Part shown: piece by piece, positions 26,848 to 39,187 of the stretch | Position numbering within the stretch: position 1 is the stretch's first letter | Layout of the letters: every line of letters begins with the position of its first letter | Origin: Rhodoferax sp. BAB1 | GTDB lineage: Bacteria > Pseudomonadota > Gammaproteobacteria > Burkholderiales > Burkholderiaceae_C | Reading direction: 5' to 3' | Length of the DNA stretch: 64,000 bases | Assembly: GCF_013334205.1 (NCBI RefSeq) | Contig: NZ_CP054424.1 | Location: forward strand, 2,500,001-2,564,000 | Translations under genes and position numbers: made by a program | Notes under the pieces: generated by a model | Told to the model about the DNA's origin: nothing | The model's database searches: none | Seen by the model: the letters and a program-made list of their open reading frames with translations, nothing else

Positions 26848-27225
26848 TCACAGCCGCTGCAGTGCGGCTGCCAGGTCCTTGATGTCCAGCGGCTTGACCA
26901 GGTAGGCGCTGGCTCCGGCATCCCGGTAGTAGGCCCAGTTGTCCGCCAGGTCGTTGCCGCTGACCAGGATGACGGGGAGGGTGGCCTGCCCGCGCTCGCG
27001 CCGCTGGCGCAGACCGGCCAGGGTCGCCAGGCCATCGTGCACCGGCATGTTCAGGTCCAGCAGCATGAGGTCGAAGGGCAATCGCTCCAGCATGTCCAGG
27101 GCGATCTGGCCGTTGTTGGCCAGGGCCCCGGAATGGCCCAGCTCGCGCAGCAGGCGCGCGGCAATGCGCAGCTGGATCGGGTCGTCATCGGTCACCAGGA
27201 CCCGCAATGGACGCTCAGGCTGCAT
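26848..27225 (-). CDS. Single-domain response regulator
   Basis: A 125-residue CheY-like receiver with no output domain. The acidic pocket is VTDDDP near residues 11-16, the phosphorylated aspartate is D57 in LLDLNMPVHDG, and the switch residues are the serine in VSGND and the lysine in VKPLD. It lies 7 bases upstream of the hybrid kinase. The gene upstream of it on this strand was the HNH gene now interrupted by the mobile element. Confidence 0.92.
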   Translation of the reverse strand: MQPERPLRVLVTDDDPIQLRIAARLLRELGHSGALANNGQIALDMLERLPFDLMLLDLNMPVHDGLATLAGLRQRRERGQATLPVILVSGNDLADNWAYYRDAGASAYLVKPLDIKDLAAALQRL

Positions 27226-27276
27226 GGTGGCTGAAGGTAGCGGAGCTTGCCTGCGACCTGCCCGATGGACGCCGTG

Positions 27277-27462
27277 TCAGTTGACCAGCAGGCGCGAGGA
27301 GCGCGGCACGTGGGCCATGAGGAACTCCATCTGGTCGGCCAGGATGCGCCGGTTGCGCAGGATGAAGTCTTCCCAGAGGCTGGGCACGTAGGGCGCATAC
27401 AGCAGCGGCATGCCGGCCTGCTCGGGCGTGCGGCTGCTCTTGCGGTGGTTGCAGGCGCGGCA
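27277..27462 (-). pseudogene. 3' fragment of host HNH endonuclease gene split by the mobile element
   Basis: The last 61 codons of a host gene: CRACNHRKSSRTPEQAGMPL to a C-terminus MAHVPRSSRLLVN. The first part, 37653-38033, lies 10.2 kb away on the same strand. Joining the two at the shared TGCCGC restores an unbroken 186-residue HNH protein with the full LTREHIIP...MNVVTACRACNHRK motif. The family is the HNH nucleases with CAYCG and ACNxxK zinc-finger cysteines. As it stands this half has no promoter or start and should be non-functional. Confidence 0.88.
27457..27462. repeat. Left direct repeat of the mobile element (GCGGCA)
   Basis: GCGGCA is found here and again at 37653-37658. On the coding strand of the target it is TGCCGC, the codons Cys-Arg of the HNH motif. 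It is either a target duplication or the recombination core site. One copy restores the target reading frame exactly. Confidence 0.8.
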
Positions 27463-27467
27463 TTCCA

Positions 27468-27491
27468 ACCCCCAAAGCTGAGTCACCAGTT
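27468..27491 (+). repeat. Left terminal inverted repeat
   Basis: ACCCCCAAA (27468-27476), six bases, TCACCAGTT (27483-27491). The same two blocks, with five variable bases between, occur inverted at the right end (37626-37647). A related CTACCAGTT lies about 81 bases further in, inside the promoter of the first recombinase gene. Confidence 0.75.
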
Positions 27492-27556
27492 CTGAAGGAT
27501 TTTAGAGGGAGGCCGAAAACACTGTGACTGCACTTGATAGCTCCAAATTTTAGTTA

Positions 27557-27590
27557 TTAACACCTACCAGTTTACTGGTATGATATCGAA
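27557..27590 (+). promoter_or_regulatory. Promoter and palindromic operator of the recombinase operon
   Basis: TTAACA (27557-27562) and TATGAT (27579-27584) are 16 bases apart. The spacer and the first -10 bases form the palindrome TACCAGTTTACTGGTA (27565-27580), so a bound dimer would block RNA polymerase. The palindrome half-site ACCAGT equals the subterminal repeats at both element ends, which suggests that an element recombinase or partner represses its own operon. The expected start point falls at or very near the ATG at 27591, so the message may be leaderless. Confidence 0.6.
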
Positions 27591-28991
27591 ATGCTGAGCT
27601 TCGACGGCGCCCACATCGTCATACACCTAGCGATTGAGGCGCCTGACGCAAAAACGCTGCCGGTCTTGGTGGAACTGGATGAGAGGGGCCTGCCGACCAT
27701 GAGCCTCAGCGTGGCTATGTACGCGAGGTATCTCCAGCGCGAGGGAGCGCGAAGCTACGAGACGCTTCGCAAGTACGTCACAGCCATCGGCAAACTGAAG
27801 GACTACTACACGCTTGTGTGTGGGAGCAAGCCCATCGAGGCACGCGAAATCGGGCGGCTGCTGGAAGACTTCCTTCACGCGTATGACCATGGGACCGTGT
27901 TGGGATGGGCTCCGTCCTCGCAGAACGAATACGTGCTGTGTCGGAGCGCCGTGGTGGAGTACGTCAAGTTCGTGATGGACAACGGAGACGCGATTTGGCC
28001 AACCCGGGAGATACGGTTCATCGAAGACTGTCGTGTCTCGTGGTCAGGCTCGCAGCATGCCGAGAAGAGTCTTCTCTTCCACACCAAGAAGCGACTCAGG
28101 AAGAAGACTGGGGGCAGGAAGAAGGCGCTCACCGGCTTAAGGCAGTACAAGCCATTTCCTCAGAAATACCTGCAATTACTTTTGGACGAGACGAAAAACC
28201 CCCGCGACCGACTGCTGTTCTCGACACTGGCCTTTGGGGGACGTCGCATCTCGGAGGTGCTCAACGCATTCACCCACGACGTCTTCACCGACAAGGAGAT
28301 GTTGCACTTCGTCCTTGCCCATCCAGTGCAGTCATTGATGGAGTGGACCAACCTGTCGGGCGCGACCCTTCGCGGTACGCGAAAGGAATATCTGAAGAAA
28401 CAGTTCGGTCTGCTGCCCCGCACTGACCACGGCGCCGAGCGCAGCGCACTCGGATGGAAGGGCATCAAATTCGACGATGAGGCTGCCCTCAAATCGGAAA
28501 CTTACTTCATTCGAAACGCCGACAAAGAACTCGTCCCTCTATATCGGGAGTACCTGCACGAGGTCAGGCAGAGGCTGCCCAGGCGGCCGCACCCGTACTA
28601 CTGGGTGAATGAAGACGGTGAGCCCCTGACCCTGAAGGCAGCCGCCAAGCAATTCGACCTGGCCCGCAAACGTGTGGAGAAGAAGTTTGGGGTCAGCCTG
28701 AAAGGGTATGGCCTCCACTCACTGCGCCACTACTACGGTTTCTACTGTGTCGACGTGTTGAAGGCCGACCTGCTGATGGTGCAGAAATGGATGGGTCACG
28801 CGCAAATATCGTCGACGGCCGTCTATGCCCACATCTCACCAGAAACGGCAAGGGACGAGCTGGCTGCAGCCGAGGGCAGGAAGGCCGTCGGCGCACAGGC
28901 GCAGGGCGTGCTGCCCAGCGCCCTCCAGCGGCACGGGACAACGGCGCTCGGGGACATCGACACCAAGAGACTAACCAGGAAGATGCGATGA
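27591..28991 (+). CDS. gmtY: Tyrosine recombinase, GmtY-like
   Basis: A 466-residue site-specific recombinase. All catalytic positions of the tyrosine-recombinase fold can be placed: R219 in FGGRRISEV, H376 and R379 in HSLRHYY, H403 in WMGH and nucleophile Y412 in AVYAH. The N-terminal half (to about residue 190) is an arm/core-binding region with a SAM-like helical part. It is the first gene of the element, next to the left end, and its stop overlaps the next ATG (ATGA). Gene order and the large second partner match GmtY of Gamma-Mobile-Trio elements; I assign the symbol from that context, not from a search. Confidence 0.8.
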   Translation: MLSFDGAHIVIHLAIEAPDAKTLPVLVELDERGLPTMSLSVAMYARYLQREGARSYETLRKYVTAIGKLKDYYTLVCGSKPIEAREIGRLLEDFLHAYDHGTVLGWAPSSQNEYVLCRSAVVEYVKFVMDNGDAIWPTREIRFIEDCRVSWSGSQHAEKSLLFHTKKRLRKKTGGRKKALTGLRQYKPFPQKYLQLLLDETKNPRDRLLFSTLAFGGRRISEVLNAFTHDVFTDKEMLHFVLAHPVQSLMEWTNLSGATLRGTRKEYLKKQFGLLPRTDHGAERSALGWKGIKFDDEAALKSETYFIRNADKELVPLYREYLHEVRQRLPRRPHPYYWVNEDGEPLTLKAAAKQFDLARKRVEKKFGVSLKGYGLHSLRHYYGFYCVDVLKADLLMVQKWMGHAQISSTAVYAHISPETARDELAAAEGRKAVGAQAQGVLPSALQRHGTTALGDIDTKRLTRKMR

Positions 28992-31900
28992 CCTACAAGT
29001 ACATCAGCACCGAGCCGCTGGCAGTGTTCCCTGCTTCTACAGCGCTGGCACCAGCAGTCCACTTGAACACCGACAAAACCAGGTTCAAGTTGTTGACCAC
29101 GCCTTCGATGCGCGAGTTGCGTGCCGCCATCGACTCGTATGCAGCAGTGCGGGGCGAAGCACTCTGGAGGGAACTCACAACCGTCGAGGACGGCTCCTGC
29201 AAGCTCTTTGCCACAGCGGGCAACTCTCTTTGGAATGTGAACCGGGGCGCCGTTAGCGCCATTCTTGGCGAAGACTTCACAGTAACTCAACTGCGTGAGC
29301 TGGTGACCGGCGAGGAAGGGCCTCGCGTCTTGAAAGCGCTGAAGCCTAAGACCGTAACGGAGATGGACGCTCTGTACCGCCTCAATGGCAACCGTGAATC
29401 CGCCATCGGTCACGACTACCTGACGGGCGCCGCACGAGCTGCGGATTCGGCTCTTTCCTTCTACGGCCTCATTATCGAGGCATTGTTCGAGGGGTCTCGC
29501 GATGTCAACCCCCAGAGGGGGACCATCCCAAAATCCTATTACCAGGCGAGGGTGTACGAGTTTCTGGGATACAGCGCGACGAAGGGTTGGCTCCTCTTCC
29601 CGTTCGTACACCCCCAATCAGGCATTCAAGAACACCTCCACCTCTCGCATCGCAGCAACCAGGGCGCCATATTTGCAAAGGAGTATCGCCCTCCAGAAGC
29701 CGACGAGCTGATGGCCGAGCTCGCGAACATGGAAGTGGCGAAGTCAACTGAAGTGAACCGGGAAACGCATCTGCGAAACCTGATGCTCGCCTCTGACCTT
29801 CGCTCCCTCGCGCAGGTCACCACGGAATTGTTAGCGACTTGCATTGACTTGGTCCTTGAGGCGAAGGAGCCCATGACGGTGCAACAGGCCGGCAAGCAGC
29901 GCAAGACCTACAACGCACTCCTCAGACTCCACAACTCGAGGTGCGCCGGAGCACCAACACAGGCGCTTCTTTTCAAGAAGCCGGAGGTCGTCAAGCTCGA
30001 GGACTTCTCTTCGTTCTCGCAGCTGCGCGCTGAGCACCCTCACATGTTTGAGTGGAGCCAGTGGTTCGAAGAGTTCGTCAGGGAGACCAAAGACACGCAA
30101 GGTCAAACCCGCAAGACCGCATGTGCAGAGTTTGCGACATTCCTTTGCTCTCTTCCCAATCCGCCCCGCTCGCCCCTGGAAATCACGCGGTCACTCATCA
30201 ACGACTACCAGCTAGGAAGCTACGCCTGCTACCGCGGCTACTTGGCCACCAAGCTCAGTTCTGCTGCAGCGAGGAACGGGCGCCTAACCATGCTCGGTCA
30301 GTTCTTCGACTTCGTGAAAGACCGTCTCCTGGCAAGGCACAAGGGGGACCCGAAGAACGCCCCTTGGTTAGCACAGCCAGTTGACATGAAGCTGGACCGA
30401 TTCAGTGACACGCTTAAGAGCGGTACCACTCGGAAGGCGATTGCAGCTCATATTATGGAAGAGATGCGCAAAGTCCTTACCGGCGATGACTACGCATGGG
30501 CGAAAGCGCAGGGAGGCTGGACCCACCTCGTCAACGAGAAGACAAAAGCGCTGGAGTACGTTTGGTGCCCGAGCGCAGCCTTGCTGCTCTACACCCTCTT
30601 GACATTGCCCCTGCGCAGCCTTCAGGCGAGGCTGTTTGACTCCGGCGAAGCCGATGCGTTCATCTTCGACTTCGAGCGCCGGGCCATGGTCCCCAATCCG
30701 AACCAAATAGCAATCAATGGCGTCATTGACTCGAATCGCAGGGAGGGCGTACTGCAGGTGATTCCTTCCGGGATGCTGGACGTGTCTGACGTCATTGGCA
30801 TCTGGGTGCCGGTCAATAAAACATCCGACGAGGGGTACCACATCCCGTGGGTCAGCGACGAATTACTTAAGCACCTGCGCTACCAGTACGAATGGATTCG
30901 CCTATATGCCGCTCACCCCACCCCGTACGGCATTATCGAAGTGCAGGGTCACCGGAACCAGCCGGAAGAGTGGACCGAGCGCCAAGACAAGTTCCTCTGC
31001 CTTTTCCGTGACCCTTCTGCGGACCGCGGGACTGACCCGTCGTTGCCGGTATCCAAACAAAAACTTCTAAAGCTCTGGGTCGAACTCTGTGCCGAAACCG
31101 AAAGACGCATCAACAGCTTGGCTCAGAGCGAAAGCCAGCGCGTGCAGCTCGTTACGACCGCCGGCGGCAAGACTCGCGCGCTCCACGACATTCATACCCT
31201 GCGGGTCTCCGGCATCACTGACCTGCTTGACCGAGGTGTCCCACTAAATATCGTCTCAGAGTACGTGGCCGGCCATGCCACGTACATCATGACGCTATGG
31301 TATGACAAACCCTCACCAGGGCAAATGCGTCAAGCTCTGAAGAACGCCGAGGCCACGGCGGGGAGGTCTACGGCGGCAATCCCGAAGTTCACGGAAGCCG
31401 AAGCGCACGCAATGCGCGATTACCTGGTGACGAACTCCTCGTACAAGGGTATGTACACCGGGTTCGACGCAATGACGGAGAACGCTGGCCTGCTGCAATT
31501 CCGGCTGGGTGGCATCTGCCCAGGCACCCGCTGCGAGGAAGGTGGCCTTACTTCGAATGGGAGAATTGCCCCGGTTCCGGTGGGCGACAGGGGCCCGTCG
31601 TGTCCGCAGTGCAGATTCTGGTTGACGGGGCCAGCGTTCTTGCTCGGGCAGTGCATCGAAGGGAACCAGCTGATTCTCAAGATTCGCCAGAAGATTCAGG
31701 CCCTCGACGTGCTGCGTGCTTCCATCCTTGACGCTGAGGACGCTGAGGATTTCGCACAGGCCGACCTCCTGCGCGGACAGACCGATGTCGAGGAGCGGCA
31801 GCTGAACGACATGCTCACCGAGTGGTGGCACAGGATGAAGCTCTATGAAGCATCGGTGCATAAGCTCGATGACTACAAGCAGTTTCTGGCAGGCGGCAGG

Positions 31901-32356
31901 GCGGATGGTGAATCGACCTCACGCCTGATGCTGGTGACAGACCAGCCCAACCAGGACCTGACTTTCAGCTTCAAGCAGGCAACCCAGCTGGAGCTTGACC
32001 ACTTCCTATCAACCTGCGCAGAACTCCTGCCCGATTACGCCCTGGATTCCAAGGCAGTGGCACTCGACCTCGAGATGGCCGTTGGCAAGTTCCTGGCCAT
32101 CAACGAGCACTCTGACCTGACGAATCTGTACTTCAAGCTCACTGACGACCAGCGTCTGTCAGCTGCGAATCTGGCCATCGAGTTGATGCTGGGTGCGGCA
32201 GAAGACCCGTCGCAAGCCTCAGACCTGCTTGAGGGGCGGACACCGCTTGCCTCCCTTCCACACCTGCAGCAAGGACTGTCGGAGCTACTGCTGGCATCAA
32301 GCAAAGCGACCACCCCTAGCGCCTCAAAAACTATCCCCATCAAGGCCCTGAAATGA
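28988..32356 (+). CDS. gmtZ: Large integrase-like protein, GmtZ-like (VPA1269 family)
   Basis: A 1122-residue protein whose start at 28988 overlaps the previous stop. It contains a second, diverged tyrosine-recombinase core: a candidate Arg in LTLPLRSLQARLF, H736 and R739 in DIHTLRVSG, H763 in VAGHATY and Y772 in LWYDK. A probable zinc site follows (C844, C849, C872, C875 in CPGTRC and CPQC), then a helical C-terminal third. The size, zinc cysteines and position between gmtY and gmtX fit GmtZ. The recombinase trio with one oversized partner recalls Tn554-type TnpA/TnpB/TnpC. The frame extends upstream of 28988 but that part is antisense-like gmtY overlap and not plausible protein. Confidence 0.75.
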   Translation: MTYKYISTEPLAVFPASTALAPAVHLNTDKTRFKLLTTPSMRELRAAIDSYAAVRGEALWRELTTVEDGSCKLFATAGNSLWNVNRGAVSAILGEDFTVTQLRELVTGEEGPRVLKALKPKTVTEMDALYRLNGNRESAIGHDYLTGAARAADSALSFYGLIIEALFEGSRDVNPQRGTIPKSYYQARVYEFLGYSATKGWLLFPFVHPQSGIQEHLHLSHRSNQGAIFAKEYRPPEADELMAELANMEVAKSTEVNRETHLRNLMLASDLRSLAQVTTELLATCIDLVLEAKEPMTVQQAGKQRKTYNALLRLHNSRCAGAPTQALLFKKPEVVKLEDFSSFSQLRAEHPHMFEWSQWFEEFVRETKDTQGQTRKTACAEFATFLCSLPNPPRSPLEITRSLINDYQLGSYACYRGYLATKLSSAAARNGRLTMLGQFFDFVKDRLLARHKGDPKNAPWLAQPVDMKLDRFSDTLKSGTTRKAIAAHIMEEMRKVLTGDDYAWAKAQGGWTHLVNEKTKALEYVWCPSAALLLYTLLTLPLRSLQARLFDSGEADAFIFDFERRAMVPNPNQIAINGVIDSNRREGVLQVIPSGMLDVSDVIGIWVPVNKTSDEGYHIPWVSDELLKHLRYQYEWIRLYAAHPTPYGIIEVQGHRNQPEEWTERQDKFLCLFRDPSADRGTDPSLPVSKQKLLKLWVELCAETERRINSLAQSESQRVQLVTTAGGKTRALHDIHTLRVSGITDLLDRGVPLNIVSEYVAGHATYIMTLWYDKPSPGQMRQALKNAEATAGRSTAAIPKFTEAEAHAMRDYLVTNSSYKGMYTGFDAMTENAGLLQFRLGGICPGTRCEEGGLTSNGRIAPVPVGDRGPSCPQCRFWLTGPAFLLGQCIEGNQLILKIRQKIQALDVLRASILDAEDAEDFAQADLLRGQTDVEERQLNDMLTEWWHRMKLYEASVHKLDDYKQFLAGGRADGESTSRLMLVTDQPNQDLTFSFKQATQLELDHFLSTCAELLPDYALDSKAVALDLEMAVGKFLAINEHSDLTNLYFKLTDDQRLSAANLAIELMLGAAEDPSQASDLLEGRTPLASLPHLQQGLSELLLASSKATTPSASKTIPIKALK

Positions 32357-33063
32357 ACAACTCTCAACAGCCGGAACGCAGGGCCTCAGACGTCCTGTAT
32401 GACGATATTGCCGCTTCTCGCAACAGCATCAGGCGCGGGAATATCGCTGCCATCAGAGAGGTGTGCGACCTGATGGAGAAGGACGGTGTTCCGATTGCCG
32501 CGGCTGAGGTGGTTCGTCGCTGCGGTCCAAACGGACCGGCGTATTCGACGGTCAGCAACACCGGCTCCATGCTTGGCGAGTACATCAAACTGCGAATCAC
32601 CGAGCAGGCGTCTCGCCAGAAGAGCGTCTCCAGGAACGGCAGTCTCGCGGACACCGTCCTCGACCCCGTCCTGCAGGCCCAAATCAGGGACAAAGAGAGC
32701 GTTGCACGCTGGCTCCAGAAGGAGAACGACGCACTTCGCACGTTGCTCAAGACGCTGCGGCCTGGCGTCGACATAGACGGCGCCATTGCTCGTGCCACGA
32801 AGGGCGGACAACCGTTCCTGTTGGCTGCACCAGAAAGTCCAGAACCGCATGCCGACAAGCACGTTGCGGCAGCGCTGTTGAAGCTCATGGACCACCTTGT
32901 TGGCGGACGGCAGTACACCTTCATCAAGGGCCGTCTTACCATTAACAAGAAGGTCGTGCTGGACTCGGCCGAGGTTGCAGCCTATCGACGGAGCACCGGC
33001 CTAGCTGATGGCGACTGGCAGCAGCGGTATGAAACAGAGGGAGCATCTGATGGCCAGCGGTAG
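32353..33063 (+). CDS. gmtX: GmtX-like protein
   Basis: A 236-residue protein, starting in an ATGA overlap with the gmtZ stop. The N-terminal 90 residues look like a helix-turn-helix: REVCDLMEKDGVPIAAAEVVRRCG followed by AYSTVSNTGSMLGEYIKLR. A helical or coiled-coil stretch follows (QIRDKESVARWLQKENDALRTLLKTL) and the last 60 residues are a compact alpha/beta part (YTFIKGRLTINKKVVLDSAEVAAYRR). It is the third member of the recombinase trio and may set DNA binding or regulation, analogous to TnpC of Tn554. Its 3' end overlaps the next gene by 14 bases. Confidence 0.7.
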   Translation: MNNSQQPERRASDVLYDDIAASRNSIRRGNIAAIREVCDLMEKDGVPIAAAEVVRRCGPNGPAYSTVSNTGSMLGEYIKLRITEQASRQKSVSRNGSLADTVLDPVLQAQIRDKESVARWLQKENDALRTLLKTLRPGVDIDGAIARATKGGQPFLLAAPESPEPHADKHVAAALLKLMDHLVGGRQYTFIKGRLTINKKVVLDSAEVAAYRRSTGLADGDWQQRYETEGASDGQR

Positions 33064-33484
33064 GCAGGTCGCCGAGGAGAACGTCCAGGCTTTTGCGACC
33101 TGGATAGCGAGTAAGTCTGACGATGAGCTTCGCTCCTTGGTTCACCGTGGACAGCTCTCGCGCAAGGAGCTCGCAATCGAGTGCGGCTTCGCCAAGTCGG
33201 TCCTTGACCAGAACCCACGCGTCAAGAAGGCGCTCAGCGACCTGGAGGACGAGTTGCGTCAGCGCGGCGTGCTTCCACCGAAAGTGGAAGAGCCCGCCGG
33301 CGTGCCTGCCCCGCTCACCAGGGAACCCGGCAAGCTGCGAGGCGCCATTGAAGCAGAGCGTCTGCGCAGGCTGGAGACGGAGAACGCGGGTCTGAAGGCC
33401 GAAGTCACCGAGCTCAAGAGGGCGTTGGAGAAGTACGCCGTCCTGAGCGAAGCACTGGCCCTGACAGGCAGGTTACCGCGTTGA
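33050..33484 (+). CDS. VPA1267-like small DNA-associated protein
   Basis: A 144-residue protein. The ATG at 33050 is chosen over one at 33008 because a strong GAGGGAG ribosome site lies 7 bases before it. The first 85 residues (MASGRQVAEENVQAFATWIA, LSRKELAIECGFAKSVLDQNP, LEDELRQRGVLPP) contain a helix-turn-helix-like segment; a coiled coil follows (LRRLETENAGLKAEVTELKRALEKY). This matches, from memory, the small VPA1267-type proteins that sit after GmtX. Overlaps at both ends (14 bases with gmtX, TGATG with the helicase) make it part of the recombinase operon. Confidence 0.65.
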   Translation: MASGRQVAEENVQAFATWIASKSDDELRSLVHRGQLSRKELAIECGFAKSVLDQNPRVKKALSDLEDELRQRGVLPPKVEEPAGVPAPLTREPGKLRGAIEAERLRRLETENAGLKAEVTELKRALEKYAVLSEALALTGRLPR

Positions 33485-35727
33485 TGCTCGAGAGGACCCT
33501 GCGGGTCACCGCGATACGCAGCCAGAGCCCAAAGGGCTTCGGTGGCTGCATCTTCACTGGGAAGCCCATCGACGACACTGGCAACGTCCAGGACGCAGCG
33601 GCGTACTACGTCGTGAAGGCCAACGGTGCGACTTTGGGTAAGACACTCGTCCAGCCCGGTCAGTGGTGGAAGGTCTCTGGCGAGGCCGTTGAGCGCTTGT
33701 TGGAGGTCAATGGTTTCCGGGTATCGGAATGGCAAGTCGAAGCGTCCAGCGCCCTCCTGCTGCGTCCTTCTGGCGAGCACATCGTCTCGTTCCTGGCTGA
33801 CAACCCAGCCTTCGAACGCATCGGGCGGGTCAAGGCCAGAAAGCTGTGGGATGCCCTAGGCGCCAAGCTGTTCGAGGTCTTGGACACCGCAAACGTTGAC
33901 ACACTGGCCACGGTCCTCACGCCGGAGAGCGCAGCCCAAGTGGCCGCCGCCTGGGCGCAATTTGGAGACAGTCGCACGCTGCAGTGGCTTCAGGCAGAAG
34001 GCTTCGACCTTGAGCTTGGCCGGAAGGTGCTGAATTTCTTCGGCAGCGAAACACCAGAGAAGCTCCAGCAAGACCCTTACCGCCTTCTGAGTTTCTCAGC
34101 ATCGTGGCGGCAGGTTGATGCACTTGCTAGGAGCCACTTCGGCGTGGCGGTGGACGACCCGCGTCGCCTGCAGGGAGCCATCGAGGAGGCCTGCTATCGC
34201 GTTTTCACGGCCGGTCACACCACCGCACTGTCCTCTACCCTCATGGACTACCTACAAGCCGTCCTGGGCAGCCAGACCACGACGTTTCGCTGGCGCAACC
34301 TGGTTCCGACAGCCTTGTCGCAGGGCCTATCCAACGGCAGCTTTGTCGTGGGCCTTCACGGTGTGCAGCCGTTTGGCGCGATGGTGATGGAGCAACAGGT
34401 TGCCAATGCGGTCGTTTCACGCCTGACCGCTGCCGACCAAGCACTGATGCCGCCTGCAGAAGTCGAGGGCCTTCTGCACGACTACGAGGCGAAGGAAGGC
34501 ATTGAGCTCAATGCCGAACAGCGACGCGCCGTCTACCTTGCATCTGACCACTCCTTTGTTCTCATCACAGGAGGAGCTGGCGTTGGCAAGACCACGGTGC
34601 TCAAGGCGCTGTACAGGGTCTACGACCAATCGGGCATCGAGGTGGTACAACTCGCATTGGCCGGCCGTGCAGCGAAGCGAATGCAGGAGGCGACTGGCCG
34701 TTCGGCTTCCACTATCGCCAACTTCTTGCGGGCAGGCAAGGAGCTTTCAGGAAAGGTTGTTGTGGTCGTGGACGAGGCCAGCATGGTGGACATTGTTTCG
34801 ATGTATCGGCTGTGCACGCTGCTGGGTCCCGATGTTCGCCTGGTGCTCGCCGGAGACCCTGAGCAGCTGATGCCGGTCGGACCAGGGCTGGTGCTTCATG
34901 CTCTGATTCGCGTTCCCGCTGTTCCCTTGGGAGAGCTAAAGGTCATCAAGCGCTACGGTGGCGACATCGCGGCCGCGGCGATTTCCATCCGCAGTGGCAT
35001 CTGGCCTTCCCTGTCAAACGACGAGGCTGGCGCAATCGCGTTCATCCCATGCGCTGACACACTTACTGCCACAGGTAGCAGCCTGATTGCCGAGACAGTT
35101 CTGGACTTGTACAGGCTCGACCCAGAGAACACTCAAATCCTGTCCGCACGCCGCAACGGGCCCGACGGCGTGAACACCATCAACAGCCTCTGCCAGGCGG
35201 AGACGACGGCAGGGCGCAAAGCCGTGACAGTTTGGAGCGCTCAGCATGACACGGTGGCGCTCACCGGATTCAACCTTGGCGACCCTGTTCTGTGCACGCG
35301 GAACATGTGGGACCGAGGCTTGCAGAACGGCTCACTGGGCACCATCGTGGACGTTGAGGATGTACAGCAACCCGTGGCTGATGGTGAGGACGGCGATGCC
35401 GAGCGCCCCCTAGCCTGGGTTCTCTGGGACGATGGCATTCGCAGGCCTGTCGCCGAGGAGATGTTAGACGACCTGCAGCTGGGCTACGCCATCACGGTGC
35501 ATAAGGCCCAGGGCTCACAGTGGCCTCGCGTCATCGTTCCGCTCACCGGGCACCGACTGCTTGACCGCACTCTGATTTACACCGCGGTCACACGCGCCCA
35601 GAAGCAGGTGCTAATCGTTGGCGACGAGGACGCAGCAAGAGCTGCCGTGGAAAGTGCGCCTCGAGTTCAGAGCAGGCAAGTGGCGCTGGACTTGCTGATT
35701 CGTTCAACGCTCGAAGCACGAGCTTGA
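33484..35727 (+). CDS. RecD2/TraA-like ATP-dependent DNA helicase
   Basis: A 747-residue superfamily 1 helicase. Residues 1-280 hold an N-terminal region with helix-hairpin-helix-like repeats (FERIGRVKARKLWDALG). Walker A is TGGAGVGKTTV with K369, Walker B is VVVVDEASMVD, followed by GDPEQLMPVGPG; the C-terminal RecA fold ends with the motifs ITVHKAQGSQWP and YTAVTRAQKQVL. This is the RecD/TraA type, 5'-3' unwinding. It starts at an ATG overlapping the previous stop (TGATG); a TTG 3 bases earlier is also possible. As the last gene of the recombinase operon it may help process or replicate the excised element; a defence role cannot be excluded. Confidence 0.85.
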   Translation: MLERTLRVTAIRSQSPKGFGGCIFTGKPIDDTGNVQDAAAYYVVKANGATLGKTLVQPGQWWKVSGEAVERLLEVNGFRVSEWQVEASSALLLRPSGEHIVSFLADNPAFERIGRVKARKLWDALGAKLFEVLDTANVDTLATVLTPESAAQVAAAWAQFGDSRTLQWLQAEGFDLELGRKVLNFFGSETPEKLQQDPYRLLSFSASWRQVDALARSHFGVAVDDPRRLQGAIEEACYRVFTAGHTTALSSTLMDYLQAVLGSQTTTFRWRNLVPTALSQGLSNGSFVVGLHGVQPFGAMVMEQQVANAVVSRLTAADQALMPPAEVEGLLHDYEAKEGIELNAEQRRAVYLASDHSFVLITGGAGVGKTTVLKALYRVYDQSGIEVVQLALAGRAAKRMQEATGRSASTIANFLRAGKELSGKVVVVVDEASMVDIVSMYRLCTLLGPDVRLVLAGDPEQLMPVGPGLVLHALIRVPAVPLGELKVIKRYGGDIAAAAISIRSGIWPSLSNDEAGAIAFIPCADTLTATGSSLIAETVLDLYRLDPENTQILSARRNGPDGVNTINSLCQAETTAGRKAVTVWSAQHDTVALTGFNLGDPVLCTRNMWDRGLQNGSLGTIVDVEDVQQPVADGEDGDAERPLAWVLWDDGIRRPVAEEMLDDLQLGYAITVHKAQGSQWPRVIVPLTGHRLLDRTLIYTAVTRAQKQVLIVGDEDAARAAVESAPRVQSRQVALDLLIRSTLEARA

Positions 35728-35742
35728 GAACGCTAAGGGCGC

Positions 35743-36117
35743 CTACTTCCAATTTGCGACTGCAGTAGCCTGACAGGACGTTATCCCTGTCACTCCATTC
35801 CGCCCCATAGAGATGCGGATGCGCTGCTCGTTAATCGGCACAATCTGTTTCCCAACCTTATCTGCATGCTCCCACGCGATAGCGGTGAGCTGGCTCTTGC
35901 AGGCCGTTGCAACGGCACTGCTTTCTGGGATGAATTGGTAGCGAGAGTAATAGACAGTAATTCCGAATCCGTCATCTCTCTTTTCGATACCGTACTCAGT
36001 GTCTTTATCGTATGTAGCCAGGGACTGATTTGTATGGCTTACCGGCGTCGCACAGCCAACGAAAAATACGGTCAAACTCGACGCAATCAGTAGTTTCAAT
36101 GGTCCGCCAGACGCCAT
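35743..36117 (-). CDS. Small lipoprotein, last gene of cargo operon
   Basis: A 124-residue protein with a classical lipoprotein signal: a hydrophobic stretch (LKLLIASSLTVFFVGC) ending in a lipobox whose cysteine is at about residue 22. The mature part (TPVSHTNQSLATYDKDTEYG...) has two further cysteines (TACKSQ and TSCQAT) that could form a disulfide. No family is recognised. Its start overlaps the end of the upstream gene by 22 bases and its base composition is more AT-rich than the chromosome. It converges on the helicase gene with a 15-base gap. Confidence 0.7.
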   Translation of the reverse strand: MASGGPLKLLIASSLTVFFVGCATPVSHTNQSLATYDKDTEYGIEKRDDGFGITVYYSRYQFIPESSAVATACKSQLTAIAWEHADKVGKQIVPINEQRIRISMGRNGVTGITSCQATAVANWK

Positions 36118-36410
36118 GATTGTTTTTCCTTTTCGTTGCGTTTGATATTTGGATGCTTGATACAGAGGTCCACAACTCGACTTTCAGGGATTCTGGTGTT
36201 TGTGGATATAGCCTGCGTCGAACGAAATACATAGTCAGTATTCGAGGCAGAGTGAACTAGATACTCGTAAATACGTTTGCTGTCCCGTGTATTTCGATAC
36301 AGCCGCCAAAGGCCACCCACGGCGCCGATGAGTATCGCTGCAATCAAGGTTGAGGCAAGGGAGTTTTCACTAACATACCTCATCCACATAAATGCGCGGT
36401 CATCCATCAC
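36096..36410 (-). CDS. Membrane-anchored winged-helix-like protein
   Basis: A 104-residue protein with one N-terminal membrane helix (about residues 17-36, SLASTLIAAILIGAVGGLW) and a short cytoplasmic domain. That domain (IYEYLVHSA...FRSTQAISTNTRIPESRVVDLCIKHPNIKRNEKEKQSW) reads like a winged helix: helix, helix-turn-helix with TNTRIPESRVVDLC, then a basic wing. It overlaps its upstream neighbour by 4 bases (ATGA) and its downstream neighbour by 22, so the three genes are one unit. Function unknown. Confidence 0.65.
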   Translation of the reverse strand: MMDDRAFMWMRYVSENSLASTLIAAILIGAVGGLWRLYRNTRDSKRIYEYLVHSASNTDYVFRSTQAISTNTRIPESRVVDLCIKHPNIKRNEKEKQSWRLADH

Positions 36411-36799
36411 GCATCATCCCTGTTAGATTTTTCCGAAAGGACCCAAAATGGCCTGACCCGGCCTGTCAGTATCCATCGAGTCAAGAAGAAAATGAGCAAT
36501 ATGGCTACCGGTACTCCAGCAGCCCAAGGAACAATGGCCCGCGCCTGCTCGCGGTATTGCAATCCTTCAAGCATCGCTTTTGCTTGGCCAAGCAAGAACT
36601 CATCGTTGCTGATGCATGCCGGAAAATTTGGAGCGCTTCGACATCTTTCCGCCATCTCCTGCTGGTAGGTGCGACGACTTTCACCGACGCTATCTGCCCT
36701 CATCGCTGCGTAATGGCTCCAGCCCCAAGCAGACCAACCAACTAAGGCTGTAAGACATGCCAAACTGAGGGCAAGTCGAAACCAAACGTGCTCATTCAT
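36407..36799 (-). CDS. Two-helix membrane protein, first gene of cargo operon
   Basis: A 130-residue protein with two membrane helices (about residues 7-26, RLALSLACLTALVGWSAW, and 90-110, WAAGVPVAILLIFFLTRW). The loop between them (about 60 residues, probably periplasmic) contains two cysteines (RCRSAPNFPACI) that may form a disulfide. No family recognised. It is the first gene of the three-gene minus-strand cargo operon. The promoter must lie in 36800-36957, an AT-rich 158-base gap in which I see no clear consensus. Confidence 0.65.
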   Translation of the reverse strand: MNEHVWFRLALSLACLTALVGWSAWGWSHYAAMRADSVGESRRTYQQEMAERCRSAPNFPACISNDEFLLGQAKAMLEGLQYREQARAIVPWAAGVPVAILLIFFLTRWILTGRVRPFWVLSEKSNRDDA

Positions 36800-36957
36800 G
36801 AGGTAGAAAATCGGGTTCCGTATTGGATATTTTTTATGATAGCGACCGTAATCCTTGGGCTAATCAGAATTAGTATCACTTGAGAGCCGTAGGCGCTCAA
36901 TCCAGTGCCCATGTCCGGAGTTTATGGCGCAGCTGGAGTGACGCCCGCGGGCACGCT

Positions 36958-37524
36958 TCACGCGTGCCCTACCACCCGGGAGTGCTTAGGAACCATGCTC
37001 TTTAGCAGCTCCATCTGGTCATCTAGGATGTGCCTGTTTGCGAGAATCAGGCCCTCTTGGTGATTCGGCACGTACGGCACATACAGCAGTTGCCAACCAA
37101 GCTCCTCCAACGTCTGCGAGCCTTTCTGCGCGTTGCAGGCTACACAGCAAGCACAGCAGTTGAGCCAAGAATCGGCACCGCCCCTCGACAGCGGCTTAAT
37201 GTGGTCGCGCGTGAGCCCCTTAGCGCTCACTGTGCCGCAGTAGGCACACATGAACTGGTCTCGCCGGAACAACGCAGCATTCGAGAGCGGGATGGTCGTG
37301 CGCTTGTTGCGCTCAGGACTGCGTCCCTTGAGCACCAAGATGCTTTTGAGCGTGATTTGCGAGTCAAGACCCGTGTCTCGGTTCTTGCCGCCAGTGAAAG
37401 TGAACTCGTGGTCGCCAAAGCCATAGGCGACCTTGCCAAGAGTCTCCTGGCAGATGGCGTCTTGCCAAGACAGCCAGCGAGCCGGGTACCCCGAGCTGTC
37501 GACAGCGAGATGGAGGGACCTCAT
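36958..37524 (-). CDS. Intact HNH endonuclease carried by the element (paralogue of the target gene)
   Basis: A 188-residue HNH nuclease. The N-terminal 70 residues (WLSWQDAICQETLGKVAYGFG) are a beta-rich domain; the HNH/treble-clef core has CAYCG, then LTRDHIKPLSRGG, LNCCACCVACNAQK; the C-terminal tail is LLYVPYVPNHQEG...HILDDQMELLKSMVPKHSRVV. Every one of these blocks has a counterpart in the split host gene (CAYCG, LTREHIIPFAQDG, ACNHRK, LLYAPYVPSLWED, RILADQMEFLMAHVPRSSR), and length is nearly equal (188 against 186). A GGGAGGG ribosome site precedes the ATG, whose ATGA overlaps the stop of the truncated host frame. It lies just inside the right end of the element. Confidence 0.88.
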   Translation of the reverse strand: MRSLHLAVDSSGYPARWLSWQDAICQETLGKVAYGFGDHEFTFTGGKNRDTGLDSQITLKSILVLKGRSPERNKRTTIPLSNAALFRRDQFMCAYCGTVSAKGLTRDHIKPLSRGGADSWLNCCACCVACNAQKGSQTLEELGWQLLYVPYVPNHQEGLILANRHILDDQMELLKSMVPKHSRVVGHA

Positions 37525-37551
37525 CGTGCCCTCCCGCGAACTCGTAAACTG

Positions 37552-37634
37552 AACTGGTGATGACCACGAGTTGCTGAGAGGCGATTCGTCCGCCTCCTGC
37601 GAGGTCGGAACTCACTCACGCACTCAACTGGTGA
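37552..37634. repeat. Subterminal AACTGGTGA repeats at the right end
   Basis: AACTGGTGATG occurs at 37552 and again at 37626, 74 bases apart, in the same direction. The inverted form TCACCAGTT is at the left end (27483), with a related CTACCAGTT at 27564, 81 bases further in. Two similar sites at each end suggest binding sites for the element recombinases. Confidence 0.65.
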
Positions 37635-37647
37635 TGTTTTTGGGGGT
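37626..37647 (-). repeat. Right terminal inverted repeat
   Basis: Read on the minus strand: ACCCCCAAA, four variable bases, TCACCAGTT. It mirrors 27468-27491 and lies five bases inside the right GCGGCA repeat. Confidence 0.75.
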
Positions 37648-37652
37648 GATAA

Positions 37653-37658
37653 GCGGCA
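37653..37658. repeat. Right direct repeat of the mobile element (GCGGCA)
   Basis: Second copy of the 6-bp repeat at 27457. Recombination between the two would remove 10,196 bp and rejoin the HNH reading frame without any scar. Confidence 0.8.
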
Positions 37659-38212
37659 GGCCGTCACCACGTTCATCCAGTGGTCCTGGCCATCCTGCGC
37701 AAAGGGGATGATGTGCTCGCGGGTGAGCTCGGTCTCGTGGTGGTCTACACCGCAGTAGGCGCAGACATTGCGGTCGCGCGTGAAGAGCTTGCTGTTGGTC
37801 AGGCTGGGGCGCAGGTCGAAGGGGTTGATGCTGGGCACGCCCTTGGTGCCGATGATGCTGTTGACGGTGATGACGGACTGCTCACCGGTGATGGCGTTGT
37901 GGCCGCCATGGAAAACGGCGATCTCGCCGCCCGCCTCCCAGCGCACCTCGTCGGCGGCATAGTGCAGCACCGCCTCTTCGAGCGAAATCCAGGATTGGGG
38001 CAGCCCCTGGGCCGACAGCTTCAAGACCTTCAAAACACGCCTCCTGACCGGTTACGAGAACCATCCAAACGGAACGTTTGCGTCTGCGGTGGCCCCTGCG
38101 ATGGAGCCGCCTCGCCATTCGGACACAATATACCCTGATTTGATGACTGTTTGGCGGCTTTGCTTTTGCTGACAGCCCGGCCCGCTATCAAAAAGATACC
38201 AACACCCTGCCC

Positions 38213-39187
38213 ATGAAGGTTTTCCGCGGCTTCCACCACCCCGGCATCGCCCCCGCCTGTGCGCTGACCATCGGCAATTTCGATGGCGTGCACCGTGGCC
38301 ACCAGGCCATGCTGGCCCTGCTGCGCGGCGAGGCGGCGCAGCGCGGCGTGCCCAGCTGCGCCATGACCTTCGAACCTCACCCGCGCGACTACTTTGCCGG
38401 CGCCACGGGCAACGCTGCCCTGGCGCCGGCACGTATCGCCACCCTGCGCGACAAGCTGGCCGACCTGCAGCGCTGCGGCATCGACCAGGTGATCGTGCTG
38501 CCCTTCGACGCCCGGCTGGCATCGCTGAGTCCCCAGGCCTTCATAGACGACGTGCTGGTGCGCGGCCTGGGTACGCGCTACGTGCTGGTAGGCGACGACT
38601 TCCGTTTCGGCGCCAAACGCGCCGGTGACTACGCCCTGCTGGACACCGCCGGCACAGCCCGGGGCTTCGACGTGGCGCGCATGAACAGCTACGAGGTGCA
38701 CGGCCTGCGCGTCTCCAGCTCAGCCGTGCGCGCTGCCCTGGCGGAGGGCCGCATGGACGACGCGGCCCGCCTGCTGGGCCACCCGTACCACATCTCCGGC
38801 CACGTGCTGCACGGGCGCAAGCTCGGGCGCGAGCTGGGCTTCAAGACCCTGAACCTGCGCTTCAGCCACTGGAAACCGGCCGCCAGCGGCATCTTTGCCG
38901 TACTGGTGCATGGCCTGGACGTCCAGCCCCTGCGCGGGGTGGCCAACCTGGGGGTCCGTCCCTCGCTGGACCCGAACGATGTGAATGGCGGCCGGGTCCT
39001 GCTGGAAACCCATTGCCTGGACTGGCCGGCCGCCCTGGGCGCCGAGGGGGCCTACGGTAAAATCATCCGCGTGGAACTGCTGCACAAACTGCACGACGAA
39101 CTGAAATACGACAGTCTGGATGCCCTCACGCAAGGCATCACCCGGGACTGCGATGCTGCCCGCGCCTGGTTCGCCCGGCGAATTTGA
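38213..39187 (+). CDS. ribF: Bifunctional riboflavin kinase / FAD synthetase
   Basis: A 324-residue enzyme that phosphorylates riboflavin to FMN and adenylates it to FAD. The N-terminal nucleotidyltransferase domain shows LTIGNFDGVHRGHQAML and FEPHPRDYF, with VGDDFRFG and SSSAVRAAL; the C-terminal kinase domain has GRELGFKTLNL (in place of the usual G-x-P-T) and ANLGVRPS. It is divergent from the split HNH gene (179 bases between starts) and leads the ribF-ileS-lspA cluster conserved in proteobacteria. Confidence 0.95.
   Translation: MKVFRGFHHPGIAPACALTIGNFDGVHRGHQAMLALLRGEAAQRGVPSCAMTFEPHPRDYFAGATGNAALAPARIATLRDKLADLQRCGIDQVIVLPFDARLASLSPQAFIDDVLVRGLGTRYVLVGDDFRFGAKRAGDYALLDTAGTARGFDVARMNSYEVHGLRVSSSAVRAALAEGRMDDAARLLGHPYHISGHVLHGRKLGRELGFKTLNLRFSHWKPAASGIFAVLVHGLDVQPLRGVANLGVRPSLDPNDVNGGRVLLETHCLDWPAALGAEGAYGKIIRVELLHKLHDELKYDSLDALTQGITRDCDAARAWFARRI

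Follow-up and report, generated by a model that had tools for sequence, protein, structure and literature searches.

How can a mobile element afford to break a conserved protein gene of its host? The question is raised by a locus of Rhodoferax sp. BAB1, which we analysed within a stretch of 64,000 nucleotides (contig NZ_CP054424.1, positions 2,500,001 to 2,564,000), hereafter referred to as the window. The initial annotation had placed at 36958..38033 an element that carries an intact copy of the gene it destroys. This interval holds the carried (cargo) gene and the frame in which the broken host gene is fused to the element, but the element proper occupies 27463-37652 (10,190 bp, or 10.19 kb) and lies inside a host gene for an HNH protein (Table 1). 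Its GC content is 0.584, as compared with 0.663 in the remainder of the window. Imperfect inverted repeats are found just inside both of the GCGGCA cores; no tRNA gene was found at the insertion site, and the region 27000-38500 had no match in Rfam.

The genes for the two recombinases, the GmtX-like protein, the VPA1267 family protein and the helicase lie on the + strand, and those for three small proteins and the cargo HNH protein on the − strand. GMT (Gamma-Mobile-Trio) islands were reportedly described by Mahata et al. 2024, and the VPA1267 family is a companion typical of them, although not a defining one. Like annotated GMT loci, the element has GmtY-like, GmtZ-like and VPA1267 genes in the same order; unlike them, its GmtY-like and GmtZ-like proteins score below the NCBIfam cut-offs (147 bits against NF040693, cut-off 340; 263 bits against NF047926, cut-off 600), and a match to a GmtX model is absent. 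The protein in the GmtX position matched no family model of Pfam or NCBIfam, its similarity to the Azonexus GmtX being weak (best phmmer value 1e-8, eight sequences compared). The helicase likewise did not reach the cut-off of TIGR01448 (348 bits; cut-off 500). Because VPA1267 alone passes its cut-off among the NCBIfam models, we refer to the element as GMT-like and not as a GMT member. R543, H736, R739, H763 and Y772 of the GmtZ-like recombinase, which we take to be its catalytic residues, are invariant among 14 sequences.

Table 1. Positions of the element, its genes and its target in the window, and of the recA-splitting element of Acidiphilium
Feature	Position	Strand	Basis
Host HNH gene, N-terminal half, starting with TTG	37653..38033	-	
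Host HNH gene, C-terminal half with core copy and stop	27277..27462	-	
Whole element	27463..37652	+	flanking 6-bp direct repeats; inverted repeats at the ends; relatives with an empty site
Left core GCGGCA (gene strand: TGCCGC)	27457..27462	+	sequence
Right core GCGGCA	37653..37658	+	sequence
Left terminal repeat TTCCAACCCCCAAAGCTGAGTCACCAGTTC	27463..27492	+	stretches in common with the right end, inverted
Right terminal repeat TTATCACCCCCAAAAACATCACCAGTTGAG	37623..37652	-	three other genomes have similar ends
GmtY-like tyrosine recombinase, 466 aa	27591..28991	+	PF00589; HxxR, GHA and R motifs located
GmtZ/VPA1269-like large tyrosine recombinase, 1122-1124 aa	28982..32356	+	PF13009
GmtX-like protein, 236 aa	32353..33063	+	position; weak similarity to annotated GmtX of Azonexus
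VPA1267 family protein, 158 aa	33008..33484	+	NF040697, 174 bits, above the cut-off of 90
RecD2-like SF1 helicase, 748 aa	33481..35727	+	Pfam AAA_30, UvrD_C_2, HHH_RecD2
Small hypothetical protein, 124 aa	35743..36117	-	ORF only, without family match
Small hypothetical protein, 104 aa	36096..36410	-	ORF only, without family match
Small hypothetical protein, 130 aa	36407..36799	-	ORF only, without family match
Cargo HNH protein, 188 aa	36958..37524	-	PF14279/PF01844; conserved Cys, His and Asn columns kept
Fused frame: 127 host HNH codons and 43 element codons, TGA stop overlapping the cargo ATG (ATGA)	37521..38033	-	
GGGAGGG, resembling a ribosome site, 4 nt upstream of the cargo ATG	37529..37535	-	sequence
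Acidiphilium recA-splitting element	L198 16613-16837 and 25218-26258; L211 1078-1893		

The insertion point falls within a conserved motif of the host HNH protein (VTACR|ACN, where the bar marks the point of insertion). Joining of the two host halves in silico, with one copy of the 6-bp core kept, gave a protein of 186 amino acids. Relatives of the same genus match both halves, and five of the six that were tried have an uninterrupted site with a single core copy, the pattern being unmatched in the sixth (L084). We followed the gene by overlapping HNH searches covering 399 genomes of the order, 26 of the genus, 399 of the family, 219 of the family of G111, seven of the genus of G1359 and 98 of the family of G059. 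In the genus search, 25 of the 26 genomes were matched. Of these, 23 lack a cargo gene and have a single host-type match of nearly full length; in the two that bear the cargo gene, the host HNH gene is broken. The host gene was matched in 348 of the 399 genomes of the family, mostly once per genome. No match was obtained in 39 of the 350 good genomes of the family or in 77 of 181 of G111's family, and by this absence the gene looks dispensable.

As the initial annotation had stated, the cargo HNH protein (188 residues) is homologous from end to end with the joined target (186 residues): BLASTP aligned its residues 6-185 with residues 4-184 of the target at 42.3% identity over 182 amino acids (E 2e-46). 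At an E value of 0.001, the genome of the window has three HNH matches, the cargo protein and the two host halves, and no others. Relatives of the cargo protein are chiefly metagenome proteins (99 among the matches listed, ~80 at at least 63% identity), which are here called cargo-type on the basis of their similarity. The conserved Cys, His and Asn columns are retained at 98–100% in 84 cargo-type proteins, which also have conserved residues of their own, for instance Y34, L142 and W144. PADLOC models of PtuB-type HNH proteins match the HNH part of the cargo protein (best E value, 8e-8). A scan of viral contigs with the HNH protein gave 28 relatives of 35–56% identity; the corresponding scan with the GmtZ-like protein found none.

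An HNH protein encoded by an element that interrupts its presumed site brings to mind a homing-type nuclease, which would cut the uninterrupted host gene and thereby drive the insertion. The initial annotation, too, had considered an allele swap of a defence or homing nuclease, for which direct support was not obtained. We regard homing as extremely unlikely, because the host copies are ordinary chromosomal genes in most genomes of the family and the element encodes two tyrosine recombinases; moreover, in the available text on SE and GInt elements, recombination is the work of the four core genes that these elements bring themselves, with no mention of a nuclease.

Cargo-type HNH genes were found in four genomes of three genera, at 66–100% identity to that of the window: the window itself (100%) and G773 (71%) of the same genus, G1171 (69%), which was taken as the Propionivibrio record behind L006, and G1359 (66%) of the third genus. 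All four directly adjoin the N-terminal half of a host HNH gene that is broken at the same codon (after residue ~128), with the cargo end facing this half, that is, in a single orientation. A right-end gene homologous to the interrupted gene, which the initial annotation had proposed to look for in other elements of this type, is present in 4/4 genomes, that of the window included. The same HNH cargo irrespective of the target was also looked for and was not seen; 4/4 genes with known surroundings lie at the HNH target. Both element ends are assembled in three of the four cases, in two of them on separate contigs, and in all three the GmtY-like gene abuts the C-terminal half of the host gene. 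At the left end of L006/G1171, relatives of gmtY, gmtZ, gmtX, VPA1267 and the helicase gene are arrayed against this half, and in G1359 a GmtY-like gene stands against it. L006 was the one locus returned by a contig scan for GmtZ-like loci. Neither the left end of the element nor a GmtZ relative was found in G773. Close to its right end, the G773 element (L121 1-6307) has, as judged by eye, genes for a MerR-like regulator and a cation-transport ATPase; the genes beside the cargo HNH gene thus differ between elements.

The left and right cores, identical in the window, are TGTCGT and TGTGTT in G1171 (L172 13409-13948, L173 9744-10010) and TGTCGC and TGCAAA in G1359 (L174, L175). A right core derived from the donor site, as in SEs, would produce such unequal cores, although drift may also account for them. 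TGTGTT encodes Cys-Val, a pair present in 11 of 78 cargo-type proteins and absent from the sampled hosts. A host HNH gene broken at the insertion codon without a cargo gene was not found among 13 partial or weak host genes, of which those of G1154, G1339, G1421, G1437, G1407 and G1452 run into contig ends, that of G1309 is a frameshift and those of G1108, G1076, G1041, G823, G1046 and G1271 were assessed by match coordinates only; the check excludes G699, G240 and G702 (weak best matches), genomes without a match and weaker second matches outside the list. As a separate observation, assembly breaks lie inside the host HNH gene in L224-L229. Five of these six fall around codons 122-138, not far from the codon of insertion, and could stem from mixed populations in which only some cells have an element.

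The fusion described in the initial annotation is seen in the sequence: the host frame continues past the junction for 43 element codons and ends at a TGA within the ATGA of the cargo start, downstream of GGGAGGG. In the four genomes, the spacer between the element's right end and the cargo ATG measures 128, 158, 128 and 167 nt, with an identical phase. The host frame is open through all four spacers, and each of the other two frames has at least one stop in every spacer. In the window, G773 and G1359 the host-frame stop is the ATGA at the cargo start; in G1171 it lies in ATGGACCACCTGA, the stop codon beginning 10 nt after the A of the cargo ATG, a near-overlap not of the ATGA form. The four spacers align poorly. 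When each was shuffled 4000 times with the first 20 nt and the phase held, 51, 21, 18 and 13% of the shuffles remained open, so the window by itself, at 51%, is weak evidence. The joint chance of four open spacers is ~3e-5 if phase and elements are independent, a product that shared ancestry makes an overstatement. A crude promoter scan of both strands of 36700-38300 found no promoter.

Might the element simply have struck a dispensable gene, with the open frame and the overlap arising by chance? The host gene is indeed missing in some relatives, and the window alone, with the phase fixed, gives the weak odds just noted. What speaks against a neutral coincidence is that four genomes with diverged spacers have the same phase, keep the host frame open and end it at the start of the cargo gene. 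We consider such a coincidence very improbable; the pattern of open frame and overlap would be hard to explain without selection.

The best reading of the locus, which we hold with considerable confidence, is target-gene replacement with translational coupling. According to this model, the tyrosine recombinases would insert the element in one orientation at the core (left copy TGYCGY), which specifies Cys-Arg within the conserved HNH motif of a usually single-copy host gene. The insertion splits the host gene and brings a divergent but intact gene of the same family to the end facing the host N-terminal half. The promoter and the ribosomes of the host would be passed on to this gene, in that the fused frame would be translated up to its stop at the cargo start and ribosomes would then re-initiate on the cargo gene. 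The host would keep an HNH activity, and the element would lower the cost of its insertion. Transcription, re-initiation, functional rescue and mobility are what we infer from this arrangement. The proposal of the initial annotation, that a replacement gene uses the host's own leader and possibly hides the insertion cost, is strengthened by the recurrence in four genomes. The benefit of rescue may be small, because the host gene looks dispensable, and since the cargo proteins are only ~41–48% identical to their respective targets, they may do something else.

A tree of 86 proteins, comprising 34 of the 84 cargo-type and 47 of the 98 host-type sequences together with five others, bears on the origin of the cargo genes. 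The cargo-type rows form one group with a support of 100/100, on a long stem of 0.88 changes per column. The cargo genes of the window and G773 are not sisters, though their hosts share the genus and an identical N-half protein; such non-sister genes suggest that elements entered this site at least twice, separately, in the window's genus. At the att residues, host-type proteins have T (97%), A (98%) and R (90%), as against A (85%), C (82%) and R (13%) in cargo-type proteins. We considered whether the cargo gene is recoded as a protection against self-insertion, which is suggestive only: 16 of 74 host-conserved columns are altered, and they are spread over the whole protein. DNA identity over the 24 nt at att (0.46-0.62) is not below the gene average (0.51-0.54), and the cargo genes of G1171 and G1359 still read CR.

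The one group on its long stem, with conserved residues of its own, would also suit a cargo protein that works for the element itself, helping for instance with recombination, exclusion or defence, and that is placed where the host leader supplies transcription and ribosomes; its resemblance to the target would then reflect descent from an old capture and not rescue. The absence of the host gene from some relatives and the match to PtuB-type models point in the same direction. The cargo protein nevertheless has the same full-length architecture as the target, 4/4 fall in the target family, and the published recA and bcp cases point to rescue. Overall, we judge a cargo serving the element to be rather unlikely and favour target-gene replacement.

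The initial annotation knew of no description for this class of element. That statement does not stand: GMT, SE and Tn554-like elements have been described, and cargo homologous to the interrupted gene has been published for recA, bcp and a yolD-like gene. The comparisons that follow draw on the portions of the cited papers that were available. SE-6283 splits bcp and carries a bcp homologue, and its authors suggest compensation (PMC5991714, PMC9345347, PMC10214605). SEs are strand-biased circularizing elements, whose circles form without leaving an empty site. Like the element of the window, they have recombinase genes at one end, a 6-bp core, imperfect inverted repeats, a recurrent target and, in SE-6283, a homologue as cargo, the core and the imperfect inverted end repeats being present here as well; SE-6283 differs in its target, bcp, and in its Gammaproteobacterial hosts, and its gene set is intA-tfp-intB-srap. 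The portions of these three papers contain no mention of frame coupling between the broken target and the homologue (PMC5991714, PMC9345347, PMC10214605). The recA mobile element (RME), published in 2014, splits recA and carries an intact divergent recA, and for that of V. cholerae both movement and a functional recA were reported (PMC4405046); a similar recA island is found in V. parahaemolyticus (PMC4334540). The Vibrio RME is site-specific, splits its target and holds an intact divergent homologue, as does the element of the window, but it inserts in both orientations on a test plasmid and has a recA promoter region with a LexA-type site. Because of this both-orientation insertion and its own LexA-type promoter region, it needs no hand-over from a leader.

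Tn552-II carries a 'target-gene-like' gene, tgl, and its authors, who compare it with Tn554 and SEs, regard rescue of the yolD-like target as possible (PMC12486829). It has tnpABC and a 7-bp att brought from the donor, and the likeness lies in a cargo homologous to the interrupted gene; unlike the present element, it occurs in Staphylococcus, has other target genes and retains a copy of att in tgl. GInt islands share with the window's element a multi-recombinase operon, few fixed sites and a target that is often not fully inactivated, but they have other targets, such as ssb, and what spares these is insertion at the gene end or an outward promoter rather than a full homologue (PMC5385486). 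GMT islands are mentioned in PMC12715929. With the target-replacing RME, SE-6283 and Tn552-II, the element of the window shares an intact homologue of the gene that it interrupts. Within the available portions of the literature searched, there was no case with an HNH target and none of frame coupling of a broken target with its substitute. As far as searched, then, the HNH target, the occurrence in Betaproteobacteria and the conserved coupling are new, while the principle itself has already been published.

A second GMT-like element with a target homologue was found on the Acidiphilium multivorum plasmid NZ_CP041717.1. Here recA is interrupted at the Walker A motif, and the element is flanked by TCCTCGGG at either end. 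Besides an annotated gmtX it has genes for a helicase, a VPA1269 family protein and another recombinase, and it contains a complete recA that is 74% (protein) and 67% (DNA) identical to the split one. Among Alphaproteobacteria it is a counterpart of the Vibrio recA mobile elements. The N-terminal half of the split recA faces the recombinase end, so a hand-over of the reading frame does not apply in this case. Recoding of the carried recA was also considered: the core serine codon has switched class, yet 6 of 17 conserved serines in total have done so. Among 20 GMT-like loci, of which 16 were compared first and four later, along with the second element of one of them, only the window and Acidiphilium were seen to carry a homologue of the gene at the left flank, by a comparison of left flank and interior that misses intergenic insertions, right-hand genes past the fetched stretch and long elements; L006 scored none since its contig ends, its cargo lying on another contig. 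Carrying a target homologue is not a general habit of GMT-like loci, within the limited reach of this test of 20. Matches discarded as short (29 aa in L007; 30 and 21 aa in G364) or as arising from tandem copies (L195) are not counted.

Three loci deserve mention in their own right. On Polaromonas pPNAP01 (L008 12009-12572, 19746-20549, 20620-21003), a GMT element lies between two genes with the annotation DNA/RNA non-specific endonuclease, and a further endonuclease gene, not detectably similar, is found at its right end; we rejected it as a target-carrying case, as the two nucleases are not similar by BLASTP. In Vibrio vulnificus (L195 17083-42067), two GMT-like elements stand in tandem, each followed by a recombinase-family gene, and of their VPA1269 genes the second is the shorter. 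An element on a Pseudomonas plasmid (L197 22306-22809) has, immediately after gmtX, a greB gene that could be a copy of a chromosomal target.

In broader terms, target replacement may have arisen repeatedly among multi-recombinase elements of different phyla, with HNH and Acidiphilium recA as the present cases and Vibrio recA, bcp and yolD-like genes as the published ones. In the HNH lineage it would have become a fixed device, with one orientation and codon, an open leader, a stop on the start and, in the cargo gene, an att-like stretch that has drifted away from the host motif (host T-A-C-R, cargo mostly A-C-C-x); nature would thereby have its own version of the recoded rescue gene used in gene drives. 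We offer this tentatively, at somewhat less than even chances. The locus presents a repeated case in which an element affords a hit on a conserved protein gene: it brings a substitute and apparently uses the host's expression signals. It links scattered published cases (recA, bcp and yolD-like) to a Betaproteobacterial group and provides a testable sequence rule of phase, open leader and stop at the start. A gene of this kind would be swappable by transfer while its locus stays unchanged, and can mislead gene trees and annotation.
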